NCBI GenBank assembly: GCA_003024785.1
Contig: PUQB01000407.1
Span: forward strand, 165,673 to 229,672
Direction: 5' to 3'
DNA: 64,000 bases
Source of the DNA: Selaginella tamariscina
Taxonomy: Eukaryota; Streptophyta; Lycopodiopsida; Selaginellales; Selaginellaceae
How positions within the stretch are numbered: position 1 is the first letter of the stretch; every line of letters starts with the position of its first letter. The notes under the pieces are model-generated. The model saw only the letters and a program-made list of their open reading frames with translations. It did no database searches and had not been told where the DNA came from. Shown here one piece after another: positions 23,221 to 52,824 of the stretch. A program made the position numbers and the translations under genes.

Positions 23221-25893
23221 ATGCATTTAAGGCGTGAATGCTTCTTGTTCAAGATTGAAATGTTGTTTTACATAAAAGTTTTTATCTAATTCACTATTTG
23301 ATTTTATTCAAGTTTGATTATAAAGATCTTTAATTAATTATTGATTCTTTTTCCTTTACAGTAACAAATAAATAAGAAAGTCAACACACTAAGAACGAAT
23401 GCCTTGTGTTTTACTTTCCAAATGTCAATATACTTGTTAAGTCTATATACATACGTCTATGTTTACACTTACAAATGAAAAGCATTAATATATTTGCAGT
23501 TTCACGCTCGTTTTAAGGATAACATTTGATTGCCTTTGACTTTCTCTTGGGTATTTAAATTTACTTAGTTTATTTTCATTCATGTTCAGTGCATCTTTAC
23601 TTGTTATAAACACAAGAATAAGTTCATACTCTTTTAATTTTGAAATGTAAAATAATTTATAATTTGTAAAGATGTCATTGCTTATGGATGTTGAGGCTTA
23701 CACTCCAACCATAATGTTGTTGTGCCTCCTCTTTTTAAACCATATGCTAGTTTAATTCCAATTGTGCTAAGTTTTTCTCAATTATTTATTAACTTTATAT
23801 TTAATAGTTTTTTTTTTCTCCATTGTAAGACAAAAAAAGATTATTCCAATATGTGAACTCAACTTAGCAAACACTCAATTATACATAATGTCTCAATTCA
23901 CTAATGTAATGCACCCTCTTGAATTGCTTAGCATAGGCCTAATAATGGACATGAAAAACTAAAATAATTATTTTAATGGGAGAATCTTAAATATTTGCTT
24001 ATGTTTTTTTTAAGCTTTCTAATATTAATTTGAATTTGAATGTAAATATGGGCATTTTGCAAAAGGAATCATCTAGTGTGTATGGGATTCATGCACAATG
24101 CATGTATTCTACTTTAAAAATTTATTAGATGGCTTAAAGAATTTTAGTGGAATATAATAAAAATGTTGCATAATGAGATTATCTTGTAGGAGCTAGACCT
24201 ATGCAAAATGCTTGTTAAGAGTTGCATGCCATTGAAACATTAAAAAAAAAATTATTTAATACTTTGATAAGTCTTTTAATTTACTTACTCCTACATTCAT
24301 TTCTAACTTTTTTATTTGTTGTTCCATATTGAAGGTTGGATTTTCATTCATTTATGATTTTTGTTTGTTATTCCATACTGAAGGTTGGAATTTTATGTAG
24401 GCATATGAAATGCAGAACTCAACATTTGTTTACTCAAATGTTGTGGTGAAACAATATAATGTGACTTGCCTAATTTCCCATTATATAGGTATTATGAATA
24501 TCAAAAGATGAGGTGCATATGCATATTGTGAAGAATAAAAATGAAGTGTGTATAGGCCATCTTTATATGAAATTATATTGGATTAATAAGAGTGTGACTT
24601 CAAATATTTTAGTATAATTACTTTCAACTATGTTGAATGTGAACTTGAGATACTAGCACATACTAATGTGAGGAGATATAATTTGACCAAAGGACTTCAC
24701 TCCTTATATCAAGCTGGAAACACATGTGCAAGTGGTTTAGGAAAAATCCCCTATATACACAAGAATAAACCAAAGTTAACCTCTGTATACATGGAAAAAA
24801 ACTAATCTTTATCCATACCTTTGTGTACTATACCATAATAAAATGAAAATGCCCATTAAGTAGCATATATGAAAGATGTTACTAGAATAAGAAGAACTAC
24901 AAAAATTCTTCTATAGTACATGTTTTTTACTACAAAACATTTACGTTTACACACACTCATTATGTTGTTTATCATTGTCTTTTGTAGTTACTAATCAAGA
25001 TAGCTTTGTACATGAGATAAATAAACCAGATAACGATGGGTTCAGATAGTACGGTTGGCATGAGTGAAACTGGTTGCTTGTATAGTGGCCAACATCTACA
25101 ATGTAGCTCAAGTAATAATATGGTAATGCAGTTGTATTGAACGGACATTATTACACTTAAAGCTTCAAATGGTGTGCGTGTTAACTTCATATTTATATTT
25201 ACAGACTTGTTGCCAAAACATATATTCAACCTTGATACGATAAAAGGGGTTTTGGTTGATTTCTTGTTTTGCCTTTGTTGCGGCTCATGTGTCAAAAATT
25301 TCTATAAACTTACACACATCCTTAATATCATTGCAATGTCTGATATCCAAATTAAGCATCAGTAGGAGGTCTATTAAACATAAGAAACATTCATTTATAT
25401 ATACACACACATAAAACCTGTTTTTGAATGCCTTTGTGATTTTATATTAAAATTCTGTATATATATACACGTATATATATCTAGTGTATATATAAAATCT
25501 ATGTATGTATTCATGTTTGTGTCATTCAAAAAATAGGTTTTATGTACATGGGCGTTGAAGATACAACATATCCAATCGAAGGGGCACAATTAAGGACCAA
25601 AAAATGTGTCCTTCATTGCATTTTTCAAGAACATCTCAATAATAGAAATCTGCCCATACAATGGCTCCTTTTATCAATCCTATCACTGACATATATGTAC
25701 TCGTACTTACTAAACACTCTGACTTTGATGTAGTCGTTCGTTTTTGAATTGTCACAATTCCCAACACAAAGCCTCCATTCTCACATGAACATACCTCAGT
25801 CGGTTTGAATGTCATACCCAACAATCCGTTTGAATGGCATAGCTTTAACAACAATACTTATAACTTCTTCTCCTTGTTAATCGGTATATACAG
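23221..25893. other. AT-rich DNA without a recognisable gene
   Basis: This segment has no counterpart that I can see in the inverted copy near 60 kb. The longest frame (24,972-25,295, minus) shows no domain. A small inverted-repeat element lies at 25,411-25,543. Confidence 0.4.
25411..25543. repeat. short inverted-repeat element (MITE-like)
   Basis: The terminal inverted repeats are about 20-21 bases: ATAAAACCTGTTTTTGAATG at 25,411-25,430, and its near-perfect reverse complement at 25,523-25,543. The 90-base middle is AT-rich. The size suits a MITE or fold-back element. Confidence 0.6.
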
Positions 25894-26249
25894 TAATTAA
25901 AGTGGGTATATACGTGAAAATGGGAATATAAAATAAATTATTAATTAATACTTAAGTTTATTATTAATTAATTATTTAATTAATATGTAATTAAGCCTTA
26001 AATATTAATTAATTAATAAATTAATTCTTCAATAACCTTACTTAGTAAGGAATATTCCTAAAATATCTTAGAATATTCATATTATTTAAAAATAATTTAC
26101 AATAATTAAAAATACTATCAAACATAATTACAAATGAAATCATTTTCTTATCAACATTAATTTTTTTATAAATACTTTCTTCCTATCATACAAAGAAATC
26201 TTCTCATTTTGTCTAAATCATCACTTTCCGAATTAATCGAATCATTTTG

Positions 26250-27240
26250 TCAATATCTTGATGTTGTTGCCACCTAACACTCTCACGAATGCAATTGGGA
26301 GTTGCCATCCTTGTTAATACATAAGATGTAAAGAGAAGGTCTACATAAAGGCTCATCTAAAAATGACATTCCTTAAGAATAATATTATAAAGCGCCCGGT
26401 TGTTATCCTTCATTTTATAAAATTCAAAATCACGAGAAAGAAAAGCTTTAGGAAATGTTTAATACGATGGATACTGCTCACAAAAGTTTTCAATTCTTCT
26501 TTCTGAGGCACGTATCCAAGTAGTTCACTAGCTCATCCATGATATCGGTATCAGAATATGGGTCGAAAGTGATTGATGAATACAAGCAATGTTTTGGTTG
26601 AGCATAGCCTTCTGAGGAGAGTCGTTACCACTAACAATGTATTCTTCATTATCCTTAAGCGATGATCTCCCCATGAGTCCCAATTATTCTTTCATTCTTA
26701 AGAAGTATGGCTTGCTTTCTTTTTTATATTGTAAAATTCGAGAGGTTTATAACATACTCGTTGTCAAAAATCCAATCTTTATGAATCACCTCTTCTGCAA
26801 CACTACAATGTTTCTTAAGCAAATTCAACAGCGGTGTTAAGTTGTGAATCTGCATGCATGACCAAATCCCCACAATGCACCCATCTCTTAAGCTTTTGAA
26901 AGAGACGATTCAACCCTGGATGAAAAATAATATCATATCAAAATTTACCATGACAAGGAATGAAATCTCCTTGTTTGATTTTTTTTTCCTATCCTCGAGC
27001 CTTTGTCGATGAAGCAGAACACCATTGACATCCAACAACACAATATGGCCATGAGTAACACTATCTCGTTGCCTATCCCTTTATCATTTAATTGTACATC
27101 ATCCTTACAAGATTCAAATATTACAGGTGTTAAAGAAATTGATTTCGGAACTAAAGCCAATAGAAATGGTGATGAAAAAATTGAAGTGGTCCCATGATAA
27201 CGATGTTTTGAGCTACATTATTATCCATTTCCTGCATGAA
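26250..27240 (-). pseudogene. FCP1/NIF phosphatase-like domain, inverted copy (decayed)
   Basis: This is the inverted counterpart of 62,200-63,265, where the reading frame is better kept. Recognisable pieces on the minus strand include SCKDDVQLNDKGIGNEIV and CFIDKGSRIGK. Relative to the right copy it lacks about 85 bases near 27,055 (the stretch present at 62,363-62,440) and has several frameshifts. Function is very unlikely. See the right copy for the domain reasoning. Confidence 0.6.
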
Positions 27241-27689
27241 CTTTATCATTCTAACATGTGGCACAAGAAATTTTCACCAAACCCTCTCTTACCTCATGAC
27301 AATGCTGAAAATCCATGTCCCAACTGTTTCATTACATCTACAAAATGATAGTTAACTGACCTTATAATTATTAAGGTATATTATTTACCTTGTTAATGTG
27401 TGACCCATGTTTGAACTAAAAGCTTCATTAATCCTTGAGAATTTATTTTCTGTACAAATATAAACGAATATATAAATGCCTTATGTTACAAAACTAATTT
27501 CGTCACTCTAAGAGACTTAATCAATTCTTCTTCGCTATTACCTTCTAAGTGAGGCGAAGAAGGTCTAAGCCGCTTGTGAGATGGTTCAAGATCTTCTATC
27601 TTCTATTGATGTTTCCATGGGTAATGGAGTGTGTGAATGTTCTGTACTCCTCGAGATAACTTCCGGTCTAATATCTGATTGAAGTTCGT

Positions 27690-30590
27690 CTCAGACTCCG
27701 ACATTGAACCAGATTCGTCTTCAGAGCTATCGCACTTATCGGAGGGAACTTTCTCAAATACTCCTGTATGGTTTGTTGGGGTAGTCAGTTGAGAACCTCT
27801 CTATCCACTTGTTCAGGTCCTCAACCATGGTCTTATCCTTTTCAACGGCAAACACACATGTATCCCGAAGGTAACACTCCTTCAAGACGGACCCCCTAGT
27901 GCAGTAGTCAAAAACCCACGCATCACTGTGAGGACCCCTGATCAAGTTGACGATGCTCCGTGCCGCTTGACTTGTAATGTTTGGATAACGTACATTGCCG
28001 AATACGTCACTCTCAGCTATCGGTGTATCGGATGGAGGTTCAGGGCCGTTGGAGTGCAAACAGATGCCTGCCAGTCATTTGGAAGTTTGAAATTGTTTGG
28101 CGCATTCCTAACAACCAAGTGAACAACCGAATCAATGCACTTCGGATCAGCATCATTCATATAAAATCCTGTCCAACGATGTTTATTCCTCTTGGCAAAG
28201 GCGAAGGCAAAGGTATCGGTGACATGAGCAAGAATCAAGAAATAAATACCTGAAAACGTAGATATCAGTCAAGAGTGCAAGTATGAATTCAATAATAAAT
28301 ACCTTCTTTGTACATGCTTGCACGGCTAAGTTTCTCCACCAAATCCTCTAGTGTCCTGTCTGTCGAAGGATTTTTTGACACCCGCCGATCCATCACGAAC
28401 AATTGAAACGGTTTCCTACAAGCAGTGATGGTACCCCATAAAGTCTCCGAATCCAACAACAAACATCTGTAGGGCTTGTCGTGATTCGTAGCATCCTCCT
28501 TTATAAGGTTCAACTCGGTTCTCCGCTGCTGAAGGACTGCCATAAGAGAAGGCGTCATCGCAATGTTCTCCTTTTTGGCGTTGGCGTGCAATAGATTCTT
28601 GCCCAGATCTTCCGATTGATTCACCCATTCGACAAGCATATCATCGTTTGTCACATGCAAATATTTGCTGACCTCTTCGTATGTTGAAGCCGAGGTCCAA
28701 CCCAGTTTGTGGCAGTGTATTCCCAACCACTCCTTGAAGTGCCTGACCGTCTTCAACTCCATTGCCTTGAGATGAAAAGGAGAGGTGGGGCTGCTGTTGT
28801 TAATCTGTATTTGCCATCAATCACCAAATCAGCCAAGACTTCCATCTCCTCCATCGTTGTTCCATTTAAAGGCTTCAACCATGTGAGCTTGAAATCGTTG
28901 TCTACATCCTTTTAAGATTGAACAGACTTAGCCTTCGGCGTCTTACTGGGTTTCTTTGCAGACTTCTCTGAGGGCTCCCTTCACTTGTCTGCTTCTTCTT
29001 CAGTGTTCCTTTTGCAAAGGATTCCATAATCCCCAACCATTTGGCAAAGATCCTATCCTCGGGACAAGAAATCAACATCATCAAAAAGGATGTTTCCTTC
29101 CCGCCCACCTGGGCAAAATCAACTGCTACAATTTCTTCAACTCTCTGAAAAAAAGACAGATTAATATACCGGCGAGATAAATCCCGCCCAAACAATTTGC
29201 TTACCCGGCAGATTGTGTATTCCCTGCGGTAGCTCTTTGTGGTCGCTGAAGAGATTCCCACACGGCTCGCGTGTGTTTGAACTTCTCCCATATTTTGCTG
29301 TTGTAGTGGTTGGTGTCTGCAGCGTCCCATTCCGCCGATAACTTATGGTACTGCTCGATTGTGAGATTCGGCTTCGCTAAAAACGCCGATCTTTTCAGCT
29401 TCTCACGGGTATGCTCGGAAAGTTTTGTTGCCATCGTTCCTTTGTTGTGTTCTCGAGAAGTCGTTGGGCTGCCGTTATTGTGTGCTGGCCACTAATGATG
29501 TAGTACTTGATTGATTTTCTATTCTCCGTCTGAATCTTCCTCATTTGTTCGGTGTTGTGATCCACACTTTGTCAGCGCCTTTGTTTCTCTTAGTATGGCA
29601 CAAAACAGCATTATGTGGAACGGTGTAAGAATTGTCGTCCTTCATCTTCTCCATGAGCTCAGCTACACGTTCCTGTTGAGTGGCCTGTAATTGAAGTGCT
29701 TAACCCTACACTCGTAAATCCTATCATCCAACATCATTTCCTTGTGGCTTATTGCAGCATGGGATGCCACAGGTGCAGCTGACAAAACGACTGATGATTT
29801 TTTTTCGATCCGAATCAACATGTGTGATCCCCGATTGATGCTGTTCTAATGTTCTCGGCACACTCTTCCAGCTCCCAAATTTCTAAGCAAATTGAACGTG
29901 ATCTGTAAAGAACCTGAGACCAAGCCACCCTCTCAATCTCCTTATGATGTCGTGTGTTCTTCTTCAATGTGAAGAGGGACGATTGCTCCACTTGGATTTT
30001 CTGTATTGTGAAGCAATATCTCTGCAGAATACACCTACTCGATGAGTCTGAAGATCTTCGAAGTAGACATCCATGGATCCCCTCCATAGATGGGCTTTCG
30101 TTGAGTTGAAGAAGAACTCCACGGTCAACATCATTAGTGAACACGTGAACGTCATTATCCACAAGTCGACAAAACCACCCGAAATTAATGTTGTAACTGG
30201 CGACCTCTGGATCCGAGAACGTGACATTGGATGGAACAAGGCATATGTGTCGAGCATCGTTCAATCTGGGTTCAGCATGCTTTCGGATGCTTGACTAGCA
30301 CACCCACTTTCCATTGTTTTGCTTGTCCATGCGATGTGACAGAGGTTAGTTTGACAGCAACCATGGTTGTTCCAATGCGCTTCCCGTTTAGTTTGAAATA
30401 TGGCCAAGTTGATTCCAGAATCCCCCTGCCCATCTCTTCTCCTGCTCTCGTCTTAATGTCACCTCAATTCCACATCTGAATACAAAAATGATTTTCAAGC
30501 ACATATCCGAGTATAACAGATTTTATTTTAATTCTTACCCAGAATTTGACGACGACTCCATACTAATGACTCGATCTCCTTGTTTAATTA
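27690..30590 (-). pseudogene. transposon gene with DNA-methyltransferase-like C-terminus
   Basis: Leftward multi-exon coding region, broken by frameshifts. Pieces from 5' to 3': 30,590-29,815 (MGRGILESTWPYFKLNGKR; NINFGWFCRLVDNDVHVF), 29,434-28,902 (MATKLSEHTREKLKRSAF; FQRVEEIVAVDFAQVGGKE), 28,915-28,780, 28,762-28,289 (HFKEWLGIHCHKLGW) and 28,238-27,690. The last part reads AWVFDYCTRGSVLKECYL then CVFAVEKD, like the AdoMet-binding motif I and the following acidic residue of DNA methyltransferases. Upstream, FQLFVMDRRVS sits where the catalytic DPPY motif would be in a permuted beta-class enzyme. If so, the catalytic motif is lost. The tail is acidic (DSSEDESGSMSESE). The methyltransferase reading is inference from two motifs. 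A second, better framed copy of the 3' end lies at 50,110-50,665. Confidence 0.5.
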
Positions 30591-30892
30591 AATCGTCCTT
30601 CTGCAAAATAATACACTATGAATAAATCATATAAAAACGCACACACACTTGTATAAACCCGAATATACAAAAATAATACACAGAGAGAAGTACGGAATTA
30701 ACTGTCCAAAGCTCACATTTGTGCTAGTGCAAAAGAAAGATAACATTTCGTTTTAGAACCACCACAAATGTGAGCTCTGGACAGTTTTACATAGATTCCT
30801 AGCTTTTACTCGAAATATTATGATAAGATGATAAAAGTAAATAAAATGAGATATGCAACTTATATATACTAATACACATATATATTCACATG

Positions 30893-32020
30893 GAAGGTGC
30901 GGCGGGATTAATCTCGCCACCCCTTCAATGCCTCCTGAAAGAGTGGGCGGGATTAATCTCGCCACCTTTCTGGAGGCCTTGAACGGGAGTGCGGATTAAT
31001 CTTGCCACCCTTCTCGGTCTCAGAGAGAACTGGGCAGGATTTATTTGGCACACCCCTTCAGGGCTCCAGAAAGGCGGCGGGATTAATCGCCCACCATGTA
31101 AGGGATGGTGAAATGAATCTGCCACCCTTCTCAGTCCCTCCATTGGTATGTTGTAAACCTTCTACGTCTCAGACAGAACGTTTGGGATTGGTCCGACTCA
31201 CCAATGGAGGAAAAAAGAAGGTGGCGATTCATCCTCCACAGGCATTGAAGGCTCGCGGGATTAATCCCGCCACCCAGGCCCTTCCGCAGGCCATGTGCAA
31301 CAGGATTAATCCACTGAATTCTACACAGGGCATGGGCGGCGGGATTAATCCCGCCGCCATGGCCCTGCGTGCTAACCTACACGGCAAGATTAATCCTACC
31401 GCGTACGCATGCCCTGCACAAAATCGGCAGGATTAATCCACTGCCAAGCCCTTCTCTCAGGCCCTAGGCGGCGGATTAATCCCGCCGCACGCCATGCCTT
31501 GTGCGAATTGTGGGATTAATCCCGCTGCCTAGGCCCTTCAGACAGGCCATTGGCAACGGGATAATCCTACTGGATTCCGCACAGGCATGGACGTGTAGCG
31601 GGATTAATCCCGCCGTGTAGGTCCAGCACGCATGTCTTGGGCGGTGGGATTAATCCCGCCAGATGCCCATGCCCTGCACGGAATCCACAGTGGATTAATC
31701 CGCTGCCTAGGCCCTTCAGATAGGCCATTGCGGCGGGATAAATCCGCAGATTCCGCGCATGGCATGCGTAGGTGGCGAGATTAATCCTGCCGCTAGGCCC
31801 AGCACGCAGGCCATGGCCAGTGGGATTAATCCCGCCGCTCTTTGGTTAACCTCATGGTGCGGGATTAATCCGCCGTTCATGGGCTAACCAAATAGCCTGC
31901 CTAAAAGCAACGGGATTAATCCCACTGCTCATGAGGCTAACCAAATAGCCTGCCTGAAGGCGGCGAGATTAATCTGCCGCCAAGGGCTAACCATATAACG
32001 GCGGGATTAATATCGCTGCT
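30893..32020. repeat. palindrome array 1 (GGCGGGATTAATCCCGCC, about 25 copies)
   Basis: About 25 copies, most about 40-50 bases apart, of a motif whose consensus is the perfect 18-bp palindrome GGCGGGATTAATCCCGCC. Clear copies lie near 30,904, 31,257, 31,338, 31,599, 31,645 and 31,819. Many copies carry one or two changes or a one-base loss. The later spacers share words such as 'aggcccttc' and 'caggccatg'. The array is a GC-rich island in AT-rich DNA, just upstream of the leftward gene. Confidence 0.95.
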
Positions 32021-32039
32021 AACATTATATTATCTATAT

Positions 32040-32441
32040 GTATAATATGCGTGTAGGAGAGTGCATGTGTGTGCCAGAGATAAACAAATCAGATAAAATT
32101 ATACTGATACACACACACATATAATATGTATATGTATATCGTATGTGTGTGCTAAATAAATTAAATTATATAAATACACACACACACACACACACACATA
32201 TTATATATATATATGTATATATTGCATATGTATATTTATGTATATGTATATGTATATACAGGTAGTTGCATGTGTGTGAGCGAAACAAATAAATCATACA
32301 AACACACACACACACACACACACACACATGTGTGTGTGTTGTGTGTATGTATAGGAGTGTGCGTGTGTGTGCCAGAGATAAATAAATAAATAGAATTATA
32401 TAGATACTGGTAACATAATAGTATGTATATATGTATATAGG

Positions 32442-32476
<35 letters not shown>

Positions 32477-32594
32477 ATAGTGTGATGCGTGTGTAGCGTA
32501 TGCGTGTGTGAGCAAAACAAATAAAATCATACAAATAAACAGGAGTGTGCATGCGTGTGCAAAATAAAATTATATTAATAAAATTATACAAATA

Positions 32595-32630
<36 letters not shown>

Positions 32631-32870
32631 CTGTGTGTATATATTATATAATTATATATATATATGTATTATATAGTATAGGAGTGTGTGCGTGTGTGTG
32701 CGAGAGATAGATAAATAAATTTATTATTAAGATAAACACACATATAAATGTATATGTGAATAAAAATAAATAAATAAACTGAGTGTGCATGTGAGAGAGA
32801 AGAGAGATCTCACCTGTGTGTGAGAGAAGATCTCACCTGTGTGTGTGTGTGAGAGAGAGATCTCATAACC
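32040..32870. repeat. (CA)n/(TG)n and TATA-rich microsatellites
   Basis: Runs of CA or TG of 18-30 bases occur at about 32,174-32,200, 32,302-32,340, 32,452-32,477 and 32,594-32,620, set in TA-rich DNA. A purine-rich GA tract lies at 32,790-32,870. Apparent long His/Thr/Tyr or Val/Cys reading frames here come from the repeats and are not genes. Confidence 0.9.
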
Positions 32871-33199
32871 GTGCCTCGCCGCCTTGCTTCTTGAAACCTT
32901 AGGAATATACCTAAATCCTAAAAGGAATAGAAATATATTAACCTTAATCAAATATTCCTTCTTAAGAATATACTTAAACCTAAAAAGAAAAAAGATAAAT
33001 TCGCCCTAAACGAATATTCTTTCATTATATTATCAGTGTTGCGTGTGCGTGGTGTATCACATACACCCCAAGAATAAAAACATGCACGGGTTTAACATGT
33101 GTGTCTCCATAAAAGTGTTAAAGTTTCACGTGCAACGATACATATATCATACATAGTATTATACACATAGACATACAGACATATTAGTACATATTAATA

Positions 33200-33850
33200 T
33201 TAAAGAGACAGAGTACATATTATGGATCATGGTGTGTATGTTGAGACAAGAGAGACTGGTGTGTATGTTTGAGAGAAGAGAGATAGTACATATTAACATG
33301 GATCATGCATGGTGTGTATGTATGAAATAGAGAGAGAGTGTTAACAAATTAAATTCATACACATTGCATATATTAGATATATATATACATACACACGTGT
33401 ATACACACAGACATACATAATATTACATGTGTAAATTCGGGTTTAGGGTTTAGGGTTTAGGGATCATGCATGGTGTGTATGTATGAGAGTGGAGTGTAAA
33501 AAATTAATTTTGTACGCATTACATATTAATACACATATATACATACATATTATACATAGATATACATATTATGGATCATGCATGGTGTGTATGTATGAGA
33601 GAAGGAATTATGCATGGTGACACTGTGTATGTATGAGAGAAAAGAGAGTGTGTTAACAAATTAAAATCGTACACATTGATAATTAGTACACATATATACA
33701 TACACACGTGTATACACACAGAATACATATATATACAAGTTGTAAATTCAATGTGTTACATACACACAAAACTGAGTACATATAAATCATACATGCGTTG
33801 AACATGAGTTTTTCAATAAAGAAGCAACATATAATTTCTCAAGTTTGGTT
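33200..33850. repeat. dispersed short tandem motif with interstitial telomere repeats
   Basis: A motif like 'catgcatggtgtgtatgtat' followed by 'gagag' recurs near 33,226, 33,301, 33,464, 33,573 and 33,606. Three perfect TTTAGGG units stand in a row at 33,442-33,462. Confidence 0.75.
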
Positions 33851-33964
33851 TAGGACAATATGCATGTGTGTGCATATGTGTCTCTGTAAGTGCTTCTAAT
33901 ACGTGTGCACGTGTATATATAAATTTATGATTGTGTTTATATATGTGTGCAAAACAAACATCGA

Positions 33965-34700
33965 ATAATTAAGAAAATAATATTAATAAACACACTATGA
34001 ACATATTTTAAATTATACATAATAATATATGTTTATCTAATATATAGCCATATATATTTTAATAATATATATTAATTTAATATTGATAATAAGGTTTAAC
34101 ATTGAATATTTTGAAATAATAAGAAATTAATTGAGAAAATCCCATTAATATATACAAATGCAGATCAAGTACTGAAATAATTAACTAAATTAATTATGAT
34201 AATCATGTTTAATATTGAATATTCTTAAATAATAAGAAAATAATAAAGAATATCCCATTAATATAAAGAAGATTAATTACTCAAGTAATTAAGAAAATAA
34301 TATTAATATACACACTATGAACATATTTAAATTATACATAATAATACATCATTTTATCTAATATTAGTATATATAGTTTTAATATATATTAATTTAATAT
34401 TGATAATAAGGTTTAACATGAATATTCTTGAAATAATAACAAATTAATTGAGAAAATCCCATTAATATATACAAATGTAGAATAATTACTGAGATAATTA
34501 AGAATAAGACTAATTTAATTATGATAATTAGGTTTAATATTGGAATATTCTTTGAATATTAAGAAAATAATAAAGAATATCCCATTAATAGTAGGAAATG
34601 TAAATTAATTACTCGAGTAATTAAGAAAATAATAATAATAAACAGACTATGAATATATTTTAAATGATACATAATAATATATCAATTTATTTATTGTATA
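33965..34700. repeat. AT-rich tandem repeat, period about 320-330 bases
   Basis: The start 'aattaagaaaataatatta' recurs at about 33,968, 34,287 and 34,619, each time followed by 'acagactatgaa' or 'acacactatgaa'. Within each unit there is a half-unit echo ('cccattaatata' near 34,141, 34,253 and 34,458). The third unit is cut short. Confidence 0.75.
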
Positions 34701-35275
34701 TATATATATATATATATAATATAAACTTAATAATATATACTTGAATATTAAGAATGTAGAATAATTAAAAATTTCGTAATATTAAACAGCTTGAATCACT
34801 TGAATGACATTAAATGCAATTTTAAAACACTCATTGGAATTGGAGAGTATATATGTCAGACTGTCGGTTATTTGTTTCAACTCATCTTAAATTTTCTTTC
34901 TGTTATTTCGAATTTCTGATAAAGTATTGTCGGTCTGACATGTAAATTTGAAAATGCATTTAATTTCCCACTCAAATTCAGATCTGGTTCTTTCTTTGCA
35001 AGGGTTTCTTCATTTTTTATTTTCACTCTTCAGATTTTCTTTTTTCTTCATTAGTGATCACTCAGGAGCATTAAATTGGGTGCACTATTGTTTATAGGAA
35101 AGCACGGGCCTTCAGTGCTTTACAAGTATTATAAACAAATTTAGATATATTTATAAAGATTCACTCTCTTACATTCTCTTAAATTTTTAATTTAGATTTA
35201 GGAATGCATTAGGATTACAATATATTCTGTTAGGGATTTATCCCGTTTAAATATACTTTAACTTAATATTCTCGG
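34701..35275. other. AT-rich DNA between tandem repeats and palindrome array 2
   Basis: No gene is seen. A small hairpin (AAAGCAC, then GTGCTTT) lies at about 35,100-35,124 in a slightly richer stretch. Confidence 0.4.
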
Positions 35276-35279
35276 TTAG

Positions 35280-36062
35280 CCGGGCGGCGGGATTAATCCC
35301 CATTTTTTTTCGCCTCTTGAAGAGGTGGCGGGATTAATCCCGCCACATTCTTTATACTATGGCAGAATTAGTTCGGGCAATGCTTCTCCCTTTTAAAAAG
35401 AGCGGCGGATTAATCCCGCCGATAACTCTCTCAACTGAAAGAGTTACTTGAATTTATTAGAAAGAGTTGTCGCGGGATTAATCTCGCCAACCATTTTAGG
35501 AGGCAGAGAAGGGGTGGCGGGATTAATCTCGCCACACTTCCCTGTTTTAAATATTTGGGCAATTCATCCCGATCTCTTTGAAATCAGTTTCAGAAGAGTT
35601 GTGGCGGGATTAATCCCGCCGCCTTATTCCCGTCGTCAGAGTTGTGGGCGGGATTAATCCCGCCCCTTTCCTCGAGGGATTTGGCGGGATTAATCCCGCC
35701 TCTTCTCCGACGAGGAAGATCGGTGGGGATTAATCCGCGCCTCTCCGACGAGGAAGATCGGGCGGGATTAATCCCGTCTTCCTCGTCGGAGGGAGTCGCG
35801 GCGGGATTAATCCCGCCCCTCTTCCCGACGAGGAAGACGGGCGGGATTAATCCCCCTCTTCCTCGGGAGGGAATCGCGGGGGATTAATCCCGCCGAGTCT
35901 CTCCGATGGGGTAGAGTGCGGCGGGATTAATCCCGCCGACTCTCTCCGAGGGTAGTTGTCGGCGGGATTAATCCGCCGACTCACTCTCCGAAGGGGTAGA
36001 GTCGCGGCGGGATTAATCCCGCCCGTTCCTCGTCGGAGGAGTCTGGCGGGATTAATCCCATC
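35280..36062. repeat. palindrome array 2 (GGCGGGATTAATCCCGCC, about 17 copies)
   Basis: About 17 copies with a spacing of mostly 35-45 bases between 35,600 and 36,060 and looser before that. Perfect or near-perfect copies lie near 35,328, 35,601, 35,681, 35,800, 35,919 and 36,005. The spacers here ('cctcttcc', 'cgacgaggaag', 'ctctccga') differ from those of array 1, while the core palindrome is the same. The array ends about 140 bases before the DUF7869 gene. Confidence 0.95.
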
Positions 36063-36202
36063 AGTTGTATTAATAAAGCATGAGATATTATCTTATACAT
36101 AATTATGTATTATTGCACATGCATATTATTAAGCAACCGTAGTTATGATTTCTTAAAAATATTGCATAAACAGATATCATAAATAACACAATTTATGTGC
36201 AG

Positions 36203-39200
36203 GACAATATGTATAATACTGGAGATAAAGTATGTCTTCTTCGGAACAACGAGATAGTTGGCACTGGAACTGTGGAAGTTCGATGATAATGCATCATGTC
36301 ACAATATTGCCCAAGGATCTTGTGTGTACGTATGGGTGAAACATTTTCAAGCATGTTGAGGTTCGGAATGGAATTTGAGGAGGGTTCTCCTGTATTGTGG
36401 AATTTGGATGAAGTCAAGGCTGACAAAATATGCAGAGTCACAAACAAACATAGCACGAGTTTACCAGATGATGGCTTGCCTGCTGTGATGGATGAGGTGA
36501 TTCTCTTTCTTCATGAGATTGGTTGGGAGAGGCATCATCACAGCTATAAATCCAATGGAAGCAGTGTCAGAAGAGAAACTAGGGTCCGACTTCGTGGGTG
36601 TAGTTGTGACAGAGGTTTCACCTAATGGCACATTGCATCCTGGATCCCTCGTGAGGTGGCGAACATCTGAATTAAGACGGCAAGATGGTTCAACATATTC
36701 TGGGTTGGATTTCAATAATAACAACCCGGAAGAACAACTCATATTTGAAGAGGTTCCTTGCATTGGTCCTATTGTAAGAAAAAGGCGATTCATGGGTTGC
36801 AGATCTTCCCTGCAAGTTTCAGCAAGAGGTGAAGATGGATCCTACATCTTCCGAAAGTGTTACGAGCATTTCCACGATTGACTGCTGCAAGAAGAAGTGT
36901 TGTCAGATGGCAGACCGGAATGAAATTACCCAATGTAGACATGTCTTTCGTACGCTCACCCAAAAGCAAAGGCATGAGTTTGTATATGCTGCACTAACTG
37001 GGTGTATTGATGGAATGGCCTCGGACACAGGTTATCAGAGTACATCCATGGTATTTAATAAGGTGGCCATCTGCTTCAAAGCTTGGTACAGTATATACGG
37101 GATCCCAAAGACCACGTTCTACCGTCGGAGGGATGAGTGGTTAGATGGAGCGCGAACCTCAGTACATGGGAACACTGCTTGGTCAAAACCCGCTCTCACA
37201 TTATGGCAGCCATAGAGATACTCAAGGCTTTTGTGGAAGCAAATGCAGACAGGATGCCTCACAAATGCCGAACCACAAATGCAGGGGTCAGGGAAAATCT
37301 CAAGGTTTTGCCTTGATCTACACTCAATTGAAGCTGTGTGAACATGTGAACAAGTGCCTCAGCTTGATGGGGCTGCAAGCAATCTGCACTGGTACCTTCA
37401 ACAACATATGGAATACTCATTTTAAGGATGTGGAGATTGCAAAACACTCTAGCTTTTCCAAGTGTGACACTTGTACATCATTGAAGGCTGCAGAGGCTTG
37501 TGCAAAAACCTTGGTGGAGATCACTACCATTCAAAAGAAGATGGAGGCCCACATGATTGCACAACAAACTTGCCGGTCTCAGTACTATGCACACCGCATG
37601 CTTTCTGTGTCACGCCCATCAGAGTACCTGTGCTTGATCCATGACAAGATGGATCATTCAAAGACCAGCATTCCAAAGCTCGTTGCAACACCAAAGTGCC
37701 TTGGAAATGTCATGAAACTTCCGATTTCATTGACAGGTGTGCTAACACATGGACACGGTTGTGAGTCATATGGACACTTTTCACTTCCACATTGGTCTAG
37801 CGACTCCAATTTCACTATTGGGTCGTTGGCCATGTGTTTCAGAAACCTTGAAGCCCACTCACAGACAAGTCCTATCAGTGATCTCAAAGTGAAGAAACAA
37901 CACCTTCAACCTTTACATAATGCTCTCATGAACACGTCTGCACTTGAGGCTACTTGGGAATATGAGAGGCATTGTCAGCAGCCTGCACAAAAAACAGATG
38001 GCCCTGTTGAGAGTTCAGGTTCAGTGGAGGGATCTAGCTCAAATAGTGTACATGTGTCCTCAACATCAAATAAGCTTCCTCGTCATTTGCTTTTACAGAT
38101 GGATAATTGTGCAGGCGAGAACAAAAATAGGTAAATCATTTTACTTAAGGGTTTCTCAAGCTCATACTTACTTTTATTTTCTAGATATGTGCTAGCATAC
38201 TTGTCAATGCTTGTTGCCAAAGGTGTGTTTGAAACAATCACGCTCATTTTCTTATGGTTGGTCACACTCATGAAGATATTGATGCGTTCTTCAGCAAGGT
38301 CTCCAACTCTACAAAAAGGACAAGTGCACTTACCTTACCGCATATGATGAATCTTTTTGAAAATTGCATCTCCAAAAAAAGTTGTGCTTTGCTTGTGACT
38401 GAGGTGCCAGACTTCAAAAAATTTCTCAAGGAGTATATAAAAAGGGAGTGATTCTTTAGTTGGTCACCTTGTGCCGCTACAATTCTTTTTCTCCATACGA
38501 GATGGTATACCTATTATGCAGTACAAGTTACGGCCATCAGAGCAGGAGTGGTTACCGAAAGAGGGGTTAATGCTCTTCAAAAGTGGAGAGATGGAAAGCC
38601 ACTTCTCCCAGAAGGACAACCAGACCCTATTCCATTGAGTGCCCAGCTCAAGGAACAAGAGGTTATTATTGATGGCATCAAAAAATATGTGGCATGGGTT
38701 CAAAAATCGATGCCAAAGAATTCTGATAAGGCAACTGGTTACTCAGAACTATATAAGCATGTGGTGACTATTGGGAGACTGTTGTTCGAGAGTTGGAAGG
38801 GCCTACTGTCACAAGTACAGAATTGCAACACCCTTTTGGCCTAAAACAAGGTGGCGAGAGGAGATTGAAATGACATCACTGAGCACAGACGACATAAAGC
38901 CAGTAGTGATGTGGAAGTGCAAACCCCACACTTTGTTGGACAAAGGAACCAAAAACCTAAAGCATACTTTGATTGCTGCAAGGATCTTCAAAAACTAATG
39001 ATGGTTCTCATTACTCCAGATGCGTCATATAATCAGCCTATTTGGATGGGTCAAATTATCGACACACCTGAAGTAATCACAAAAAATAGTATTGTTAAGG
39101 TTGCATGGTTCAAACCACAAAAAAGGCGACACGAGAAGGAGAGCGAAAGATATAATGGATGCCTAGAGAAAACATGGTCTCCCAATCAAAAAGACCCAGC

Positions 39201-39216
39201 ATTTTATAAATGTTAA
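36203..39216 (+). CDS. DUF7869 transposase-like protein (frameshifted)
   Basis: DUF7869-type proteins are widespread in non-seed plants and animals and look like RNase H-fold transposases; their exact chemistry is not established to my knowledge. Coding starts after a likely acceptor (tgtgcag) near MYNTGDKVCLLRNNEIVG. A basic middle follows (FYRRRDEWLDGARTS). Next come a CxxC motif (SKCDTCTSLKAAEAC, about 37,461-37,505), then DKMDHSKTSIPKL (about 37,641), MDNCAGENKNR (38,098-38,130), a 54-base GT-AG intron (38,131-38,184) and GHTHEDIDAFFSKV (38,260 on). These Asp-rich motifs are the likely catalytic residues. Frame is lost at 36.3-36.6, about 36.88, about 37.2, about 38.25 and about 38.45 kb. 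The C-terminal part (WMGQIIDTPEVITKNSIVKV) looks like a small beta-barrel reader domain. It is divergent to the leftward gene, with the palindrome arrays between them. Confidence 0.75.
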
Positions 39217-39776
39217 ATCCATTCGATATGGGTGGATGTCAAGAAGCGTTGATAAAGTCACGATTAACAAAACTGCAAGGGAATGTATGTTTTCTGAAGC
39301 TTAAAGCAATTATAAAATTATAAAATATCATATATTTAATATTCATAATTATTATAAACTCTTTAATAATAGTACCAAATTGTTTACTTAACTATATAAA
39401 TTTAAAAAATGATATGGAAGATTGACTATATTATTATAGGATTTTATTATATATATATTATTACTACTACAAATTTTTAATTAATAATGTTATATTTAAA
39501 TATTAATATTTTAATAACAACATCAATATTTATATAATGTACCTCTTATGCTCTTCCTTAATTGTTATATTAGGCAATATATTATATAATTTAATATTCT
39601 ACTTTTATAATATTAATTTTTGTTCAATGAATGCTATAATTTATTAAAGGGTCGAATACAAAATAGAATTTCTAAAGAATATTCTTTTCAAACATATATT
39701 CTAAAGAATTTCCTTTAATATTAGAAAATGCTAATTAAATAGCTAAAATTGCTAATTATTAGAAATGGGACTATAG
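39217..39776. other. AT-rich right end of the composite element
   Basis: This runs from the end of the DUF7869 gene to the terminal motif. It is A/T-rich with no gene. A short readable tail (about 39,220-39,308) may extend the DUF7869 frame. Confidence 0.4.
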
Positions 39777-39789
39777 CCATACCCATTTT

Positions 39790-41943
39790 AGTTACAACAT
39801 GCATGTATGCTTTGAATTTTTTTTACACCGCTGCATAAATAAGATTGCCCTCTCGTATACTTTAATTCAAATACATAATACCCCCTGTTTAAAACACATA
39901 CGTGTATGTTGAACATGAAAAAAACCCTTTTTTCTGCACGTTTTTCTACACAACTTTAAGAGTGAAGTCCCCATGAGTTTAACATAAGAAACAGAGGAGT
40001 TATAAATTATTCAATCAGGGTACCTTTTACTAAAGAATATTATTAAAATATTTTAAATTTATTTTATAATTAGTGTTTTTAAACCAAATTTAAAATAAAA
40101 TTTAAAAAGTATATTCTTAAATCATCAATATCTAAGCCCCTTAACTTAAACATTGAATATTATTAAGATATTTCAACATTTTATAATTAATATTTATTAA
40201 TTTAGCTGGTTAAATAAATTCTGAATCATCCAATTAAGGTATATATTATGATGTAACATGTAATATATTTTCCACACAAAATTAAATTGCTCAGTTACTA
40301 TGTGAAACAATATAATATATATATTGTTTCACATTAGAAGTGGGAAATGTTCATTCAATTAATCACAAATTAAACCATATAAGATTATTGGATGAGTGTG
40401 AGTGAGGTTATCAACGGTAGTAAAACTTTAATCTTACTTAAACTACATTTAAGGTTTAAGTTGTTCATGTTAAAAACTAAGTTTAGGGTTTAGTCCTAAG
40501 CTCACCATGAAAAACACTGCACATATACACAATATTAATATACACTTAATAGTTGTACATGTTTATAAATGCATAAAAGTGATTAGTAATTACACGAACT
40601 ATAAACAAATATTAAGTTAAAGATAAATATTAAAAGAATGCATATATACAATACAGACATATAAGTGGATTCAAATTATTTTTTAACCCTTTGTTTCTTA
40701 TGGGAGTGCATGAACATGCAAATCATATGTATTAAAACTGGTTATGGAATATGAACTCAATATGCTATAAATCTATCAGTGTTGAATGCTTAAATTTGGT
40801 CCTGTTGTTCTTGCAATCCAAGTACAAGTCAATATATGTTCATATGTATATTTATGCAATTAAAATACACGCTACAGCACTTTAGTATTGGTGAATATAT
40901 GCTTAAATCTTTTATTTCTATGGTGAATTTCATCAAAATTATTACGGAATTAATGAACTAAATTAAAATGCTTCATGGTAAGTAATATTTAAATTCTTAA
41001 AATTATGTATATATATACTCACAGAAACACGTATCTTTAAGACACAAGATCTATACCACATTTATATATAACCATGTAAGAACTATATCGTTCAAAGACA
41101 GCTTAACTAAAATAATAAGTTGAAAAGAAATGATTTTTGTAATACATTGGGTACGATATTATATTATATTGGTTATACAGATTAGGAAGTAAACTGACCG
41201 AAGTTAAGTCAAGAGCCGTCAGATGGACTTATATTCCGGAATGGACATTAATAAACACATTATATTATAAACCTTGATGTAAGTACACAGATAAATGTTC
41301 ACTGTATAACACTTGACTATGTTAGAATATGAGACTTTTTGTGTTATACACGGATGTAAATCATTCCGTGCGACCTTTTGAAGATCAACGGCTATCCCAA
41401 TTCTGTACATTAGTTTTTGTTAATGAAAATGTCCTGAATACTACAATGTGTCGTCACACAAGTGCCTTTATAAGAAGCATTAGATCATACCACCATGCAA
41501 GATCTCCATCGTTGGTTCACAATGCCAGCGGGACACGTGTGCACGAAGCCTACAATACAAAGTAGACGAACAGAACAGACTTCTACAAAGATTGACTTTT
41601 TTAAATATAATGGACTTGTGGAGCCACTCCGCACATGCAACGACTTGGATGTAATACACAAGCACCTTGGCAGCGATCTGCTAATTGACAGTGACAAGAG
41701 AGTTGTTATGTATCACCAGAGAAAATGAGCAAGGTTATTGACGTAATAAATGTTTAAGTATTTATAAAATACATCGCTAGTTAATGATGTGATTAACAAA
41801 TAGATTACTGCTATATACAGATCACAATGTCTGTGAGTCACTTGCATATACAGATGTGCTTCAATGAGTGATATATGGTTAGTTCTTCCTGAGAATTTTA
41901 GAATTTAGATATGTAGATGCTCAATAGATTTGAATTAGAGACT
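39790..41943 (+). promoter_or_regulatory. upstream region of transporter copy B
   Basis: The first 0.5 kb matches the end of the window (63,590-64,000) directly. About 40,080-40,770 matches 6,960-7,560. From about 40,815 on it matches the regions just upstream of copies A and C. It is therefore the least interrupted version of the ancestral upstream sequence. It contains no separate gene that I can see. Confidence 0.6.
40301..40333. repeat. 33-base AT-rich perfect palindrome
   Basis: TGTGAAACAATATAAT is followed by its reverse complement around a TA-rich centre, giving a potential hairpin or cruciform. No function is evident. Confidence 0.6.
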
Positions 41944-44015
41944 ATGAACATGTCTTTACAGAATTTGGAGGATCACGATGATCGCTTATCGAGCTCATTC
42001 ACAGTGAGTACATATTGTGTACACCATATGTTCTATTAGTATACAGACAAAACACCACACACACACTGTACTACTTAAAGCTTTTCATTTAGGGATTTGT
42101 AAAAAGAAGATGGAGTTGTGGCTCACTCTCAATTCTTCTTGGTCAAGTCGATGGTGGTATGCAACTGTGCATATAGTCACAGCAACAATAGGAGCCGGTG
42201 TACTGAATCTCCAAAGTCCAATGTCTGCCCTGAGCTGGTAAATAATGCGTTTAATAAGCAACCACATATATTAAGATACACCATTTGGCGTATACTATGC
42301 ACATCACACATGCAAGTTAAACACACACTGTAATAGGTCCCCACACCCACATCCGCATGAGCACGCACACACATACAGACAACACATTCACACTGACACT
42401 AATGACACACTAATGGTTGACATATAACTAACACACGCGCGCGCGCATTATGACATCAATGCTACGCACATTTTACTTATGTAGATCGTTGGCAGGGAAC
42501 TAGGAATCATTGCCTTGTTATGGTTTATAGTGTTAGCTTGATTTGCTACTCACAAATGGTGGAGCTGCATGAGATAGGAGGCAGAAGATTTGACAGATAT
42601 CGGACCTGGGAAGACATTTATTGGGAGAAAGACTTGGTTTCTGGCTGGTTGTTCCATTTCAGTTTATCATTATATTCATTGTGGACATCGTCTACATTAT
42701 TACAGCTGCATCTTCACTAAAGAAGATATTTGCAAGACACGCGCATCCTACATGGCCTTGGGCTCTTGGTTTTGGATCCTTTCAACTCTTACTTTCGCAG
42801 TTTCCTGACTTTACTTCACTCACGTTTGTGTCACTTATTGGTGCAGTAACTGCCACTGGGTAATCTCTTAAATATGCATACATATGATATACGCTTTTGA
42901 TACATATATATGTATGCAGGTATTCTACAATTGTATGGATTACTATTGTTGCTTTCAATAGGAACGAGCAACCACCTTTTGCTCCTAAACCAGTTGGCAT
43001 GATTACCCTCATGACGACGATCTGGTATTCAGAATATTTGCAGCACTTGGGCAGCTAGTCTTTGCATGCTCCGCAGGGCAAAACATAGCAGTTGAAATCC
43101 AAGCAACAATTCCAAGCACGCAACAAAGGCCTTCAAAAGTTGCAATGTGGCAAGGAACACTTGTTGCTTATGTGATAATTTGCCTTCTGTTATATCCCAG
43201 TTGCAGTCGCAGGTTATTGGCTTTATGGGGATCAAACACCGAAACAGTGTCTCCATCACTTCAGAAACTGCCATTTGCTCATTGCACTTGAAAAGCCGGG
43301 ACTTTGATTGTGGCTGCAAATGTCATGTTAGTCCTTCATCTCTGTGCTACTTATCAGGTAACGCACATTTTAGGGTTCAGAAATAGTCCGTGCTTAACGA
43401 GATAATTTGCAGATCTATTGCAATGCCACTCTTCAACTCACTGGAAGACTACGTAGAGAATGCTTGGAAAATGTCAACCTTTCAAGTTCGACTAATTATC
43501 AGAGTTTCATACGTTGGTAATTAACTAGTCCATTGTGATAACTTTTTAGCTTAGTAAGTGTGTTGTTTGCCTATTCAGCTATACAACAGCTATAGCAATT
43601 TTAACGTCACCTTACTTCATATCTTGGGAAGCCGCTGTTGGGGGACTTGCAAACATACCCACGTCTTACTTGGTAAAGAAAGTGCACAGTTAACAATTTA
43701 TAATTATTAACTAATACATGTATTTACATCCTCTTCTAGATACCATGTATATTGTGGCAGAAATATCGTAAACCTAGGAGATTAAGCCTATTATGGCTTG
43801 GAAATATGGTGAGAGCTTCTTTAACACGTGTGTGTGTGTGATTACCATGTAGACAAGAAATACAGTGTAAGTTAGTATAGACATACATATAATATTTGAT
43901 AAGCTTACAATTTATGCAGTTTTGCATTGTATTTGCGGTCTTGGTGGCAATAACATCTACCATTGGCAGTGCACACAATCTGTCTAAATACCAGTACAAA
44001 TATGTTTTACCTTGA
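41944..44015 (+). pseudogene. LHT-type amino acid transporter, copy B (several frameshifts)
   Basis: Same eight-exon layout as copy A: 41,944-42,003; 42,093-42,238; 42,485-42,859; 42,920-43,357; 43,413-43,516; 43,579-43,672; 43,740-43,808; 43,920-44,015. The family signatures are still visible in pieces (MVELHEIGGRRFDRY, LGFWLVVPFQFIIIFIVDIV). One-base changes against copies A and C break exons 2 (one T lost near 42,116), 3 (T lost near 42,532 and a scrambled stretch near 42,603-42,635), 4 (near 42,993, 43,180 and 43,298), 5 (T gained near 43,418) and 6 (A lost near 43,583). The stop is TGA rather than TAA. The loss near 43,298 is the same as in copy A. It is the most damaged of the three. 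Confidence 0.85.
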
Positions 44016-44945
44016 TGATTGTATTTAACCATTTAAAAACGTATTGAATTAACTTTGAGTATGTCCTATACATTTCAACACTGGCCCTCCAATATGTTGT
44101 TAATCATGATATGTGTGTGTGTGTGTGTGGATAATCATCTCCATTTCTCCTCATAGTTTCTTCGTCCACCAAAGTATAACTGCAGCAGGCTGTGGTGTCA
44201 TATGTAGGGTGTGGCTACAAGGGAAGACACTTTCCAATAACCTGTAGTTTGAACAAACGTATTTGATTATAGTATTTTGAATTTGGTGCCATTATACACA
44301 CAATAAACTGTTAATATAAGATTAGATACAGTCAATTTTCAACTTGTTTAAATCAATTTACTATGTCTTTACAGGAGTGTGACTAATGCCTACGGGTCCA
44401 TATGCGCGGTGCGTGCCAGGATCACGCAACTGTACAGAATCCTCGAGAAATATTCCTCTAGAAATCCTTGGCGTCACCTGGTGATTGGACAATTGTTTTT
44501 TTGAATACCGATCACAATACGTTAATGTAATAACCATTAATTATTTATCAAAGAAAATTAAACGATAACACTCAAAGTGAAATTGTAAACATTTAACCTA
44601 TATTCTTGATATATTTTAAATAATAATTTATATAGGTACATAAGATATATTATTTCTAAAGAAATATTTAAATTTATATATTATGTGAAATTTCATACTG
44701 CAAGTATATACTCGGTATGTAACAATACGAGTGTTTATACAGTTCTCTTTAAAATAAAGAATATATTATATAATTATATACAAAATATAATTCCGTATAT
44801 ATATGTGTATGTATACACGATTATATAAACAGTCCACGTGTGCAAACAGTAAACGAAGCTATAATAGTACATGTATATATATGTACGTATGTACGCGCGC
44901 ACGCACGCACAGGCAGAAGAGACGTACCATCAAGAGTTTAGCTGT
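44016..44945. other. 3' flank of copy B and spacer
   Basis: The first 330 bases match the 3' flanks of copies A and C. The rest is single-copy here and leads into the 3' side of the minus-strand YebC-like gene. No gene is seen. Confidence 0.5.
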
Positions 44946-45749: not shown

Positions 45750-47529
45750 GAAGAATTTAATTAAGTCTTTAAAAAAAGAGTTAAAGTGCATATGGATGAA
45801 CAAGCGAAAGAAGAACTACCTAAAGAAGTTGAACATGAAAAAGTTCAAGTTGTTAAAGCGGTTTCGACTGCAACTCAAAGAACTCTATTGAGATCATCTC
45901 TTGCATCAAAGGATATGACAAGCAAGTGTGGAAGTCAAATTTATTATTGTTATAGATAAGCAATTATTTAATGGAAAAGTCTATGGAAGAGAATGCGGTA
46001 TATACTTATTTTCACTAAAATATAATAATGTGACAAGTTAAGTTTTGGTTATGCAATTTACTTTTATGAAAATAGGAAACACCTGCACCTTGTTAAAGAG
46101 GTGAACGCACTCAAGTCACAAAAAGGGGACAATGTTTTGGTCACTTGAGTTTATACGTTGGATAGTATAATTTTTAATTTTCACTTAAATTTAAGAAGAG
46201 GCCTATGGGAGTCTTGAAGGGAACTTTCGTAGGGTCTTTTCACGCAGAGGATACCAAGACGTTACGATGTGTGACATACCCCGTCTGAAACACTAGAGGC
46301 ATACTGGTCTGCACATATGTATCCCAACTCAATACTCAAATTGAAAAAGCACAAAAGCAAGCTCTAATCGTGTTGTAAACATACCAAACACATATATTCG
46401 TATCAAGTCCATATATTATATGTGTATGTATGCAATTAAAACGTACGTATACAGCACATTAGTATCCTAGTGGATATACATGCTTAAACCACGTTTCTAA
46501 TTTTATTTCTATCATAATGGTGTAAGTGTCATAAAAATTATTATGGTAAATAATATTTAAATTCTACAAAATGATAAATTAAAATTATATATATATGTAC
46601 AGACACACATACATATAAGACACAAGATCTACACCACATTTATGTAACACATATAAGAACTACACCATGAGCTTTACTTCGTTCACAAACGGAAAAAAAT
46701 AAGTTGAAAATAAATGATATTTCATCAAAGGGGTTTTAAAGATTACATTCGGTATGATATACTGTTATACAGATTAAATAAAAATATTATATTAAAAAGC
46801 TTTATGTAGGATAATACACGTGACTATGTTAGAATATCAGACTTCGTGTTATACACGGATGTATATATTTACGCCCCAGCTTCTGAAGATCAACGGCGAA
46901 CATTATATCCCAATTCTTTAAAAGCTTGTTTTACGTGAAAATGTGTTTGACTTACCGTCACATACAATTTGTCGTTGCACAAGTGCCTTTCTAAGAAGAA
47001 GCATTAGATCATACCATGCAATATCTGCACCGTTGGTTCACAATGCCAGCGCGGACACAAAGATTGATCTTTTCTAATGTAATAGACTTGTGGAGCCACT
47101 TGTACAAGTACTTCGCACATGCAAAATTTGAATGTTCCAATGCAGCGATTTGGATGTTATAAGAAACTTCTCTTGACAATGACAAGAGACTTGTTATGTA
47201 TCACCAGAAAACTGAGAGCCTTCTACGTACTTGTGCAAGGCTATTGAAGTAATAAGTGTTTGAGTCATTTATACACGCGCTTCTATACTTCTATTAAATG
47301 TCTTCTCCAGATCAAAAGATATTATTTATGAATATATCACTAGTTAATGAACAAATAGATTATTGCGTATACAAATCACGATGTCTGTGAGTCAAACCGT
47401 GATTACTTGCATATACAGATGCTTCAATGAGTGATATATATGTATATATATTAGATATGGTGTGTTTAGTTCTTCCTGAGAATTTTAGAAATTTAGATAT
47501 ATAGATGCTTTGAAATAGAAACTGTGGAC
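45750..47529 (+). promoter_or_regulatory. upstream block of transporter copy C, shared with copy A
   Basis: This matches 16,447-18,246 nearly throughout. It joins abruptly to the YebC-like exon at 45,749. It holds a small open stretch at 45,791-45,958 (MDEQAKEELPKEVEHEKVQ and on) of unknown meaning and presumably the promoter of copy C. Confidence 0.6.
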
Positions 47530-52780: not shown

Positions 52781-52824
52781 TAGTTTTTACTATGACTTGA
52801 CCCTTTACTTTGAAGGTTGAATGT

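Follow-up and report, generated by a model that had tools for sequence, protein, structure and literature searches.

Palindrome arrays beside two divergent genes are internal parts of an abundant DNA transposon family in Selaginella tamariscina

A 64,000-nucleotide stretch of the Selaginella tamariscina genome (contig PUQB01000407.1, positions 165,673 to 229,672, assembly GCA_003024785.1; hereafter the window) carries two arrays of the 18-bp palindrome GGCGGGATTAATCCCGCC, and these arrays are internal parts of an abundant family of DNA transposons. The arrays lie immediately upstream of two outward-running genes of the element, and their palindromes diverge more slowly between copies than the spacers interleaved with them. 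We think it probable, at roughly 55%, that the arrays are cis-acting sites for a protein, probably dimeric and likely made by the element itself, that keeps both genes on or unsilenced.

In the source assembly (300.7 Mb) the 18-mer matches at 46,888 places when one mismatch is allowed, and a reversed control has none. A plant source is also indicated by a (TTTAGGG)3 stretch and by the gene content. The left terminal repeat of the element likewise matches 3,160 places at up to two mismatches (control, 0); this count ought to take in perfect right ends as well, whose sequence departs from that of the left repeat at two positions. Six copies, that of the window included, carry 15 to 38 sites each at up to one mismatch (mean 28.7). 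Because the 18-mer count and the terminal-repeat count agree, we estimate the family at roughly 1,600 element-equivalents, which would make up about 8% of the assembly. Two copies retrieved in full length measure 14,730 and 14,955 bp, with terminal inverted repeats of 27 bp, ATGCA(C/A)GTTGTAACTAAA(G/A)TGGGCATG. The target-site duplication looks like 4 bp: nine insertions were checked, one of which (C14) was dropped for want of a recognisable right end, and an exact 4-bp flanking repeat was found at three of the eight testable insertions and no exact repeat at the other five. One element copy is nested in another, and comparison with the empty site gave a 4-bp overlap with one extra base. This nested copy (C202, L057-L058) sits inside the left-end gene of the other, which is what made the empty-site comparison available.

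The copy in the window extends from about 25884 to 39804 (about 13.9 kb); BLAST alignments with other copies end at 25893 and at 39803-39822. Its right terminal repeat is recognisable at 39778-39804, and its left limit is approximate because the outermost left-end bases have decayed. The order of parts is a left gene on the minus strand (27500..30500), array A, an AT-rich middle, array B, and on the plus strand a right gene encoding a DUF7869 (PF25273) protein (36190..39216); both genes are frameshifted in the window copy, and the left one, which matches no family, is broken. This confirms the layout given in a first-pass annotation of the window, of arrays just upstream of two genes that run outward, and the full order is kept in six copies (the window's, C1a, C1e, C2b3, C202 and C113). 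The sampled stretches also contain partial copies, one with the left gene and array A only (C1b) and one with array B and the right gene (C1c). Another, C1d, keeps both terminal repeats, and its left-gene start and array A are replaced by other sequence. In this copy, at C1:312117-323982 (L023-L024), a 4.4-kb interior including array A has been swapped for about 2.5 kb of other sequence. Further pieces of the transposon occur in the window itself: a 550-bp piece of the 3' part of the left gene at 50113-50663, 95.7% identical to 27522-28068, and at 61888-63604 an inverted left-end piece whose terminal repeat is recognisable.

In a sample of the genome, clusters of the palindrome adjoin the genes or flanks of the transposon rather than lying mostly away from them. 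The first 100 genome places, taken in contig order and hence not at random, formed 15 clusters, of which two lay within the reference copy, with both genes, and 13 outside it. When these 13 were compared with the reference copy, arrays masked, all had at least one side matching the flank of array A or B, as appropriate, and in 12 both sides matched, although in two of the 12 the flank breaks off after 24 and 61 bp; one side of the thirteenth (C2:150973) abuts a fragment of another copy. Not every cluster adjoins an intact gene, since several copies are truncated.

At up to three mismatches the 18-mer has 29 matches in the window, against an expectation of 0 in 100 shuffles, and 28 of these fall within 30.9-32.0 and 35.3-36.1 kb. 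Array A (30893..32017) has about 22 sites at up to seven mismatches, with a period of about 44 bp; array B (35282..36062, its start approximate) has about 17-20 sites of the same palindrome with a period of about 40 bp. Seven of the eight perfect copies in the window are in array B and one is in array A. The earlier figures of about 25 and 17 palindromes are fair when degenerate copies are included (22 sites in 30800-32100 and 20 in 35200-36100, at up to seven mismatches without indels). The remaining match, at 29171..29188, is a lone copy inside an apparent 60-bp intron of the left gene (GTAAG...CAG, read from the sequence by inspection), and it stands 1.73-1.78 kb from array A in all eight copies in which array A and the left gene are both present. 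Between the arrays, the DNA (32018..35281) is AT-rich and laden with microsatellites, and measures about 3.0-3.9 kb in copies with both arrays; in the window it includes, at 33961-34773, three copies of an AT-rich tandem repeat with a unit of about 320-330 bp.

Site spacing is regular. Among 337 clustered sites, pooled over the window and seven stretches sampled from the genome, the interval averages 43.9 bp, and nearly half of the intervals (144 of 294) measure 44 or 45 bp; we do not claim helix-phased binding sites, because 44-45 bp does not correspond to an integral number of helical turns. The majority consensus of array A widens to a 24-bp palindrome, GGCGGCGGGATTAATCCCGCCGCC, and that of array B is the same, except that its last two bases fall below 50%. 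The number of sites differs among copies, from 15 to 28 in array A and from 9 to 19 in array B at up to four mismatches. The spacers of the two arrays were originally described as unrelated, which is not wholly so; at one edge, 30888-30965 matches 35469-35545 in inverted orientation at 82% identity over 78 bp, so that the arrays share ancestry there.

The evidence that the palindrome is conserved came from aligning homologous arrays between copies (28 pairs from eight copies for array A, 45 pairs from ten copies for array B, none dropped). Mean identity in array A was 95.8% for sites, 92.7% for spacers and 97.3% for the adjoining gene flank; the corresponding values in array B were 96.4%, 90.8% and 97.6%. 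Sites were more alike than spacers in 25 of 28 pairs for array A and 41 of 45 for array B, where pairs share copies and so are not independent. Among pairs whose gene flank was less than 97.5% identical, sites exceeded spacers in 16 of 16 (array A, 95.4% vs 91.0%) and 16 of 16 (array B, 94.8% vs 87.2%). The first-pass statement that the palindrome is kept while spacers change is thus borne out in 32 of 32 such pairs; spacers do not evolve as slowly as the palindrome but diverge faster. Aligning across tandem repeats can pair non-orthologous units, and site and spacer share the history of such units alike. Per-position changes within sites showed no clear CpG excess, judged by eye, and CpG-specific decay was therefore set aside.

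Synonymous divergence (dS) of the adjoining open reading frames (ORFs) provides a further yardstick. In three comparisons of array A (C113 with C1a, C2b1 and the window), sites diverged by 2.6-8.3%, spacers by 9.0-13.6%, and the two left ORFs had dS of 9.0-12.6%. In three of array B (C113 with C1a, the window and C1d), sites diverged by 3.2-4.3%, spacers by 10.4-14.0%, and the main right ORF had dS of 5.2-7.3%. From these six comparisons the spacers appear to change about as fast as the adjoining gene does synonymously, or faster still, and the sites more slowly than that.

Taken with the layout, these rates would fit a mechanism in which a sequence-specific DNA-binding protein, probably dimeric in keeping with the symmetry of its sites and most likely encoded by the element, occupies many sites together. 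Bound beside the starts of both divergent genes, it would either turn them on, in a promoter role, or shield them from host silencing, a role distinct from plain activation. The arrays would expand and contract by tandem duplication while selection holds each palindrome and lets the spacers drift. Several observations weigh against this. Spacers were kept as well as or better than sites in 7 of 73 pairs, all with a gene-flank identity of at least 97.6%. The second right ORF has a dS of just 0.8-2.1%, under the site divergence, a value so low that copies may be mosaic and synonymous divergence may serve as a yardstick only locally; the contrast of sites with synonymous change is accordingly limited to the adjoining ORFs, and more weight can be put on that between sites and the spacers among them. 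Another way to keep the motif constant could be gene conversion between units. One copy with both terminal repeats is without array A, and neither gene, in the pieces scanned, scores above cut-off for a known sequence-specific DNA-binding family.

Slow change in a palindrome could reflect either its sequence or its ability to fold, and the pattern of changes favours the sequence. Symmetric changes in the two arms numbered 15 in the 337 sites, as against 15.7 ± 4.1 with randomly paired arms, and 11 in 125 distinct sites, as against 17.9 ± 4.2 with permuted arms. The changes are not compensatory, and therefore it is the sequence that is kept and not base pairing; the same test gives no support to copying of the palindrome through hairpins. 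It is thus highly improbable that the palindromes work by folding into DNA or RNA hairpins, whether as a fold-back structure (one of the functions first offered for the arrays), a cruciform, a source of small RNA or a terminator. Such a role would account for the perfect dyad symmetry, and the spacers too are quasi-palindromic, with self-complement scores of 0.63 in array A (-2.09 in shuffles) and 0.11 in array B (-3.11). Beyond the 18-mer, however, ungapped arms pair no better than permuted arms, and the spacers of array B are no more complementary to themselves than to one another. One way in which quasi-palindromic spacers could arise is duplication of units, both tandem and inverted. A separate, long and near-perfect hairpin lies between the left gene and array A (30694..30799; -43.6 kcal/mol, z -8.8) and is retained in all six copies examined; it may represent an old miniature inverted-repeat transposable element or the precursor of a small RNA. 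An Rfam scan had no match at gathering thresholds.

The right protein of the window copy matches DUF7869 at 49.4 bits against a cut-off of 26 (E 5.5e-13). Six relatives were drawn from public data (P0001-P0006): P0001 and P0002 are 30-31% identical to the stitched right protein, and P0003-P0006 have 75-84% identity to P0002. A genome search yielded 6,526 candidates, and 122 of these were scored. Among the copies that rank best against P0002, many have a frame of about 1,050 codons broken by one internal TAA, a break that by comparison with P0001 fits a short intron. P0002 was also used to look in this genome for other DUF7869 lineages with a different motif, and the 69 matches listed stem from copies alike in score and open frame. 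Structure prediction for P0002 from six sequences reached a mean predicted local distance difference test score of 33.8 and was not used. The ratio of nonsynonymous to synonymous divergence (dN/dS) was 0.14-0.29 for the main right ORF (660 codons) and 0.21, 0.26 and 0.90 for the second (392 codons), where dS is very low; an earlier, shorter comparison of the right gene gave dN 0.017 and dS 0.082.

In the left gene, frames are open over 477 and 304 amino acids in one copy, with dN/dS of 0.12-0.31 against three other copies, and the left protein shows the signature of purifying selection. A search of 5.8 billion proteins returned 922 candidates and 0 matches for it; nothing scored above cut-off in Pfam, NCBIfam or PHROGs, and PDB sequences and phages yielded nothing useful. 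The description of this gene as methyltransferase-like in the first-pass annotation finds no statistical support in the family searches. By eye, we take the stretch GQHTITAAQ to resemble ParB/sulfiredoxin proteins and FDYCTRGS, further on, to resemble a methyltransferase motif, likenesses without statistical support; neither a ParB/sulfiredoxin-like nor a DNA methyltransferase profile matched above cut-off. At the left end of the element (25893..27490, minus strand in the window), the counterpart in another copy encodes an NLI-interacting-factor-like phosphatase (PF03031, E 1.5e-7). In one sampled stretch (L031, 7312-8256, minus strand) this frame lies within the transposon's left end; it is under weaker constraint (dN/dS 0.51-0.60) and is perhaps a captured host gene.

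Arrays of binding sites in a plant transposon call to mind those of CACTA elements (En/Spm, Tgmt*), plant DNA transposons that likewise have repeated motifs, in their case subterminal repeats bound by TNPA, as described in the relevant parts of PMC2613891. Arrays of this kind in plant transposons, together with a weak TNP1-like stretch below cut-off (E 0.21 in a right-gene ORF and E 0.023 in P0001, at the N-terminus of the right protein), are what favours sites for a transposase or accessory protein acting in excision. The position of the arrays argues the other way: in the two complete copies 5.1-5.2 kb separate the left end from array A, and array B stops 3.8 kb short of the right end; both arrays fall outside recognised coding frames. 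Within 1 kb of each end, these copies have no site of this palindrome, the one motif that the check covered, at up to four mismatches, and the best match there has seven. An excision role is thus very unlikely, and end-binding, as one form of the transposase binding suggested in the first-pass annotation, is not supported because sites are absent near the ends. Of the three functions proposed there, a shared promoter or recognition array accords best with the data, and neither end-binding nor fold-back does. Nor is the element a CACTA transposon. Its palindrome repeats are internal rather than subterminal, its terminal repeats begin ATGCA(C/A)GTTGTAAC and not CACTA, its target-site duplication looks like 4 bp as against 3, and the scanned pieces contain no TNP2 transposase domain, the right protein being DUF7869; termini, domain and array position rule out membership as far as the class is set out in those parts of PMC2613891.

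The binding protein might instead come from the host. E2F-like factors, or homeodomain or GARP factors acting on GGATTAATCC, could have been recruited so that the arrays serve as a strong bidirectional enhancer, a reading we consider unlikely. The identical position of the arrays beside both gene starts would suit it, GGCGGGA is half of an E2F-type site, and Brassica transposons are said to have spread E2F sites. However, the conserved unit of 18-24 bp is long for a single plant factor, and AATCCCGCC misfits the E2F consensus, TTTSSCGC, at its first two bases.

A parallel in layout is the family of repeats in the oriP of Epstein-Barr virus, about 20 palindromic sites for a self-encoded dimer, EBNA1, which boosts transcription as well; organism and proteins are unrelated, and the likeness is one of layout alone. 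That the arrays form an iteron-like origin of replication or maintenance, as the EBNA1 sites do in oriP, is extremely unlikely. Repeated 18-bp palindromic sites do adjoin an AT-rich stretch here, but the scanned frames contain no recognised replication protein, and the two arrays are linked to two gene starts. Prokaryotic matches to the two-site pattern (eight stretches) contained no copy of the 18-mer and were discarded as unrelated, and viral contigs gave no match to the pattern. A literature search with the 18-mer and the term DUF7869 had no match, and one on palindromic repeats, transposons and bryophytes gave nothing comparable among the matches listed.

An element-made protein acting on arrays of its own sites has a precedent in the VANDAL transposons of Arabidopsis, likewise long plant DNA transposons with several genes and arrays bound by VANC, an element-encoded protein that removes methylation; according to the portions of PMC5735166 and PMC10398659 that concern these arrays, the repeats lengthen and shorten rapidly and yet retain the motif, and the motifs are 8-9 bp and non-palindromic. 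The present arrays resemble VANC targets in that a motif in non-coding tandem repeats is kept during their turnover; they differ in having an 18-24 bp palindrome at 44-bp spacing, and in DUF7869 as the transposase candidate. VANDALs and other Mutator-like elements (MULEs) make target-site duplications of about 9 bp, which here look like 4 bp. Pfam scans of the left and right ORF pieces returned DUF7869 and the NIF phosphatase, and neither a MULE transposase (VANA) nor a VANC-type domain. We do not present the element as a VANDAL, because the scanned pieces lack these domains and the duplication looks like 4 bp.

Self-recognition could have evolved independently of VANDAL: a trans-acting protein of the DUF7869 transposon would mark the element's own copies alone, through the array of 18-24 bp palindromes at each gene start, and shield them from silencing. 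We offer this more specific reading tentatively. In an element unrelated to VANDAL, the protein would perhaps be the uncharacterised left protein. It would be bolder still to suppose that the left protein is a ParB-like clamp that loads at parS-like palindromes and spreads from there.

The remaining features of the window lie outside the element. Three related host segments (16447-20750, 40825-44340 and 45750-50090) are 72-88% identical over parts, and the transposon copy lies between two of them; one frame (42594-42860) has a match to amino-acid transporters of the family Aa_trans (E 1.8e-10). At 51600-52800 there is a degenerate tandem array with a unit of about 50 bp, AGTTTATCCCTAAGTTG..., which has no match to the palindrome and is unrelated to it.

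To our knowledge, sequence-specific anti-silencing by transposons has been demonstrated for VANDAL alone. If the proposed function is correct, an unrelated family of about 1,600 element-equivalents by our estimate, with a far longer preserved motif that is palindromic and stands beside both gene starts, would suggest that selfish elements repeatedly reach the same solution. It would also supply a DNA-binding protein whose specific recognition site is very long. The contrast in rate between sites and their interleaved spacers offers a gauge of selection on non-coding transposon DNA.

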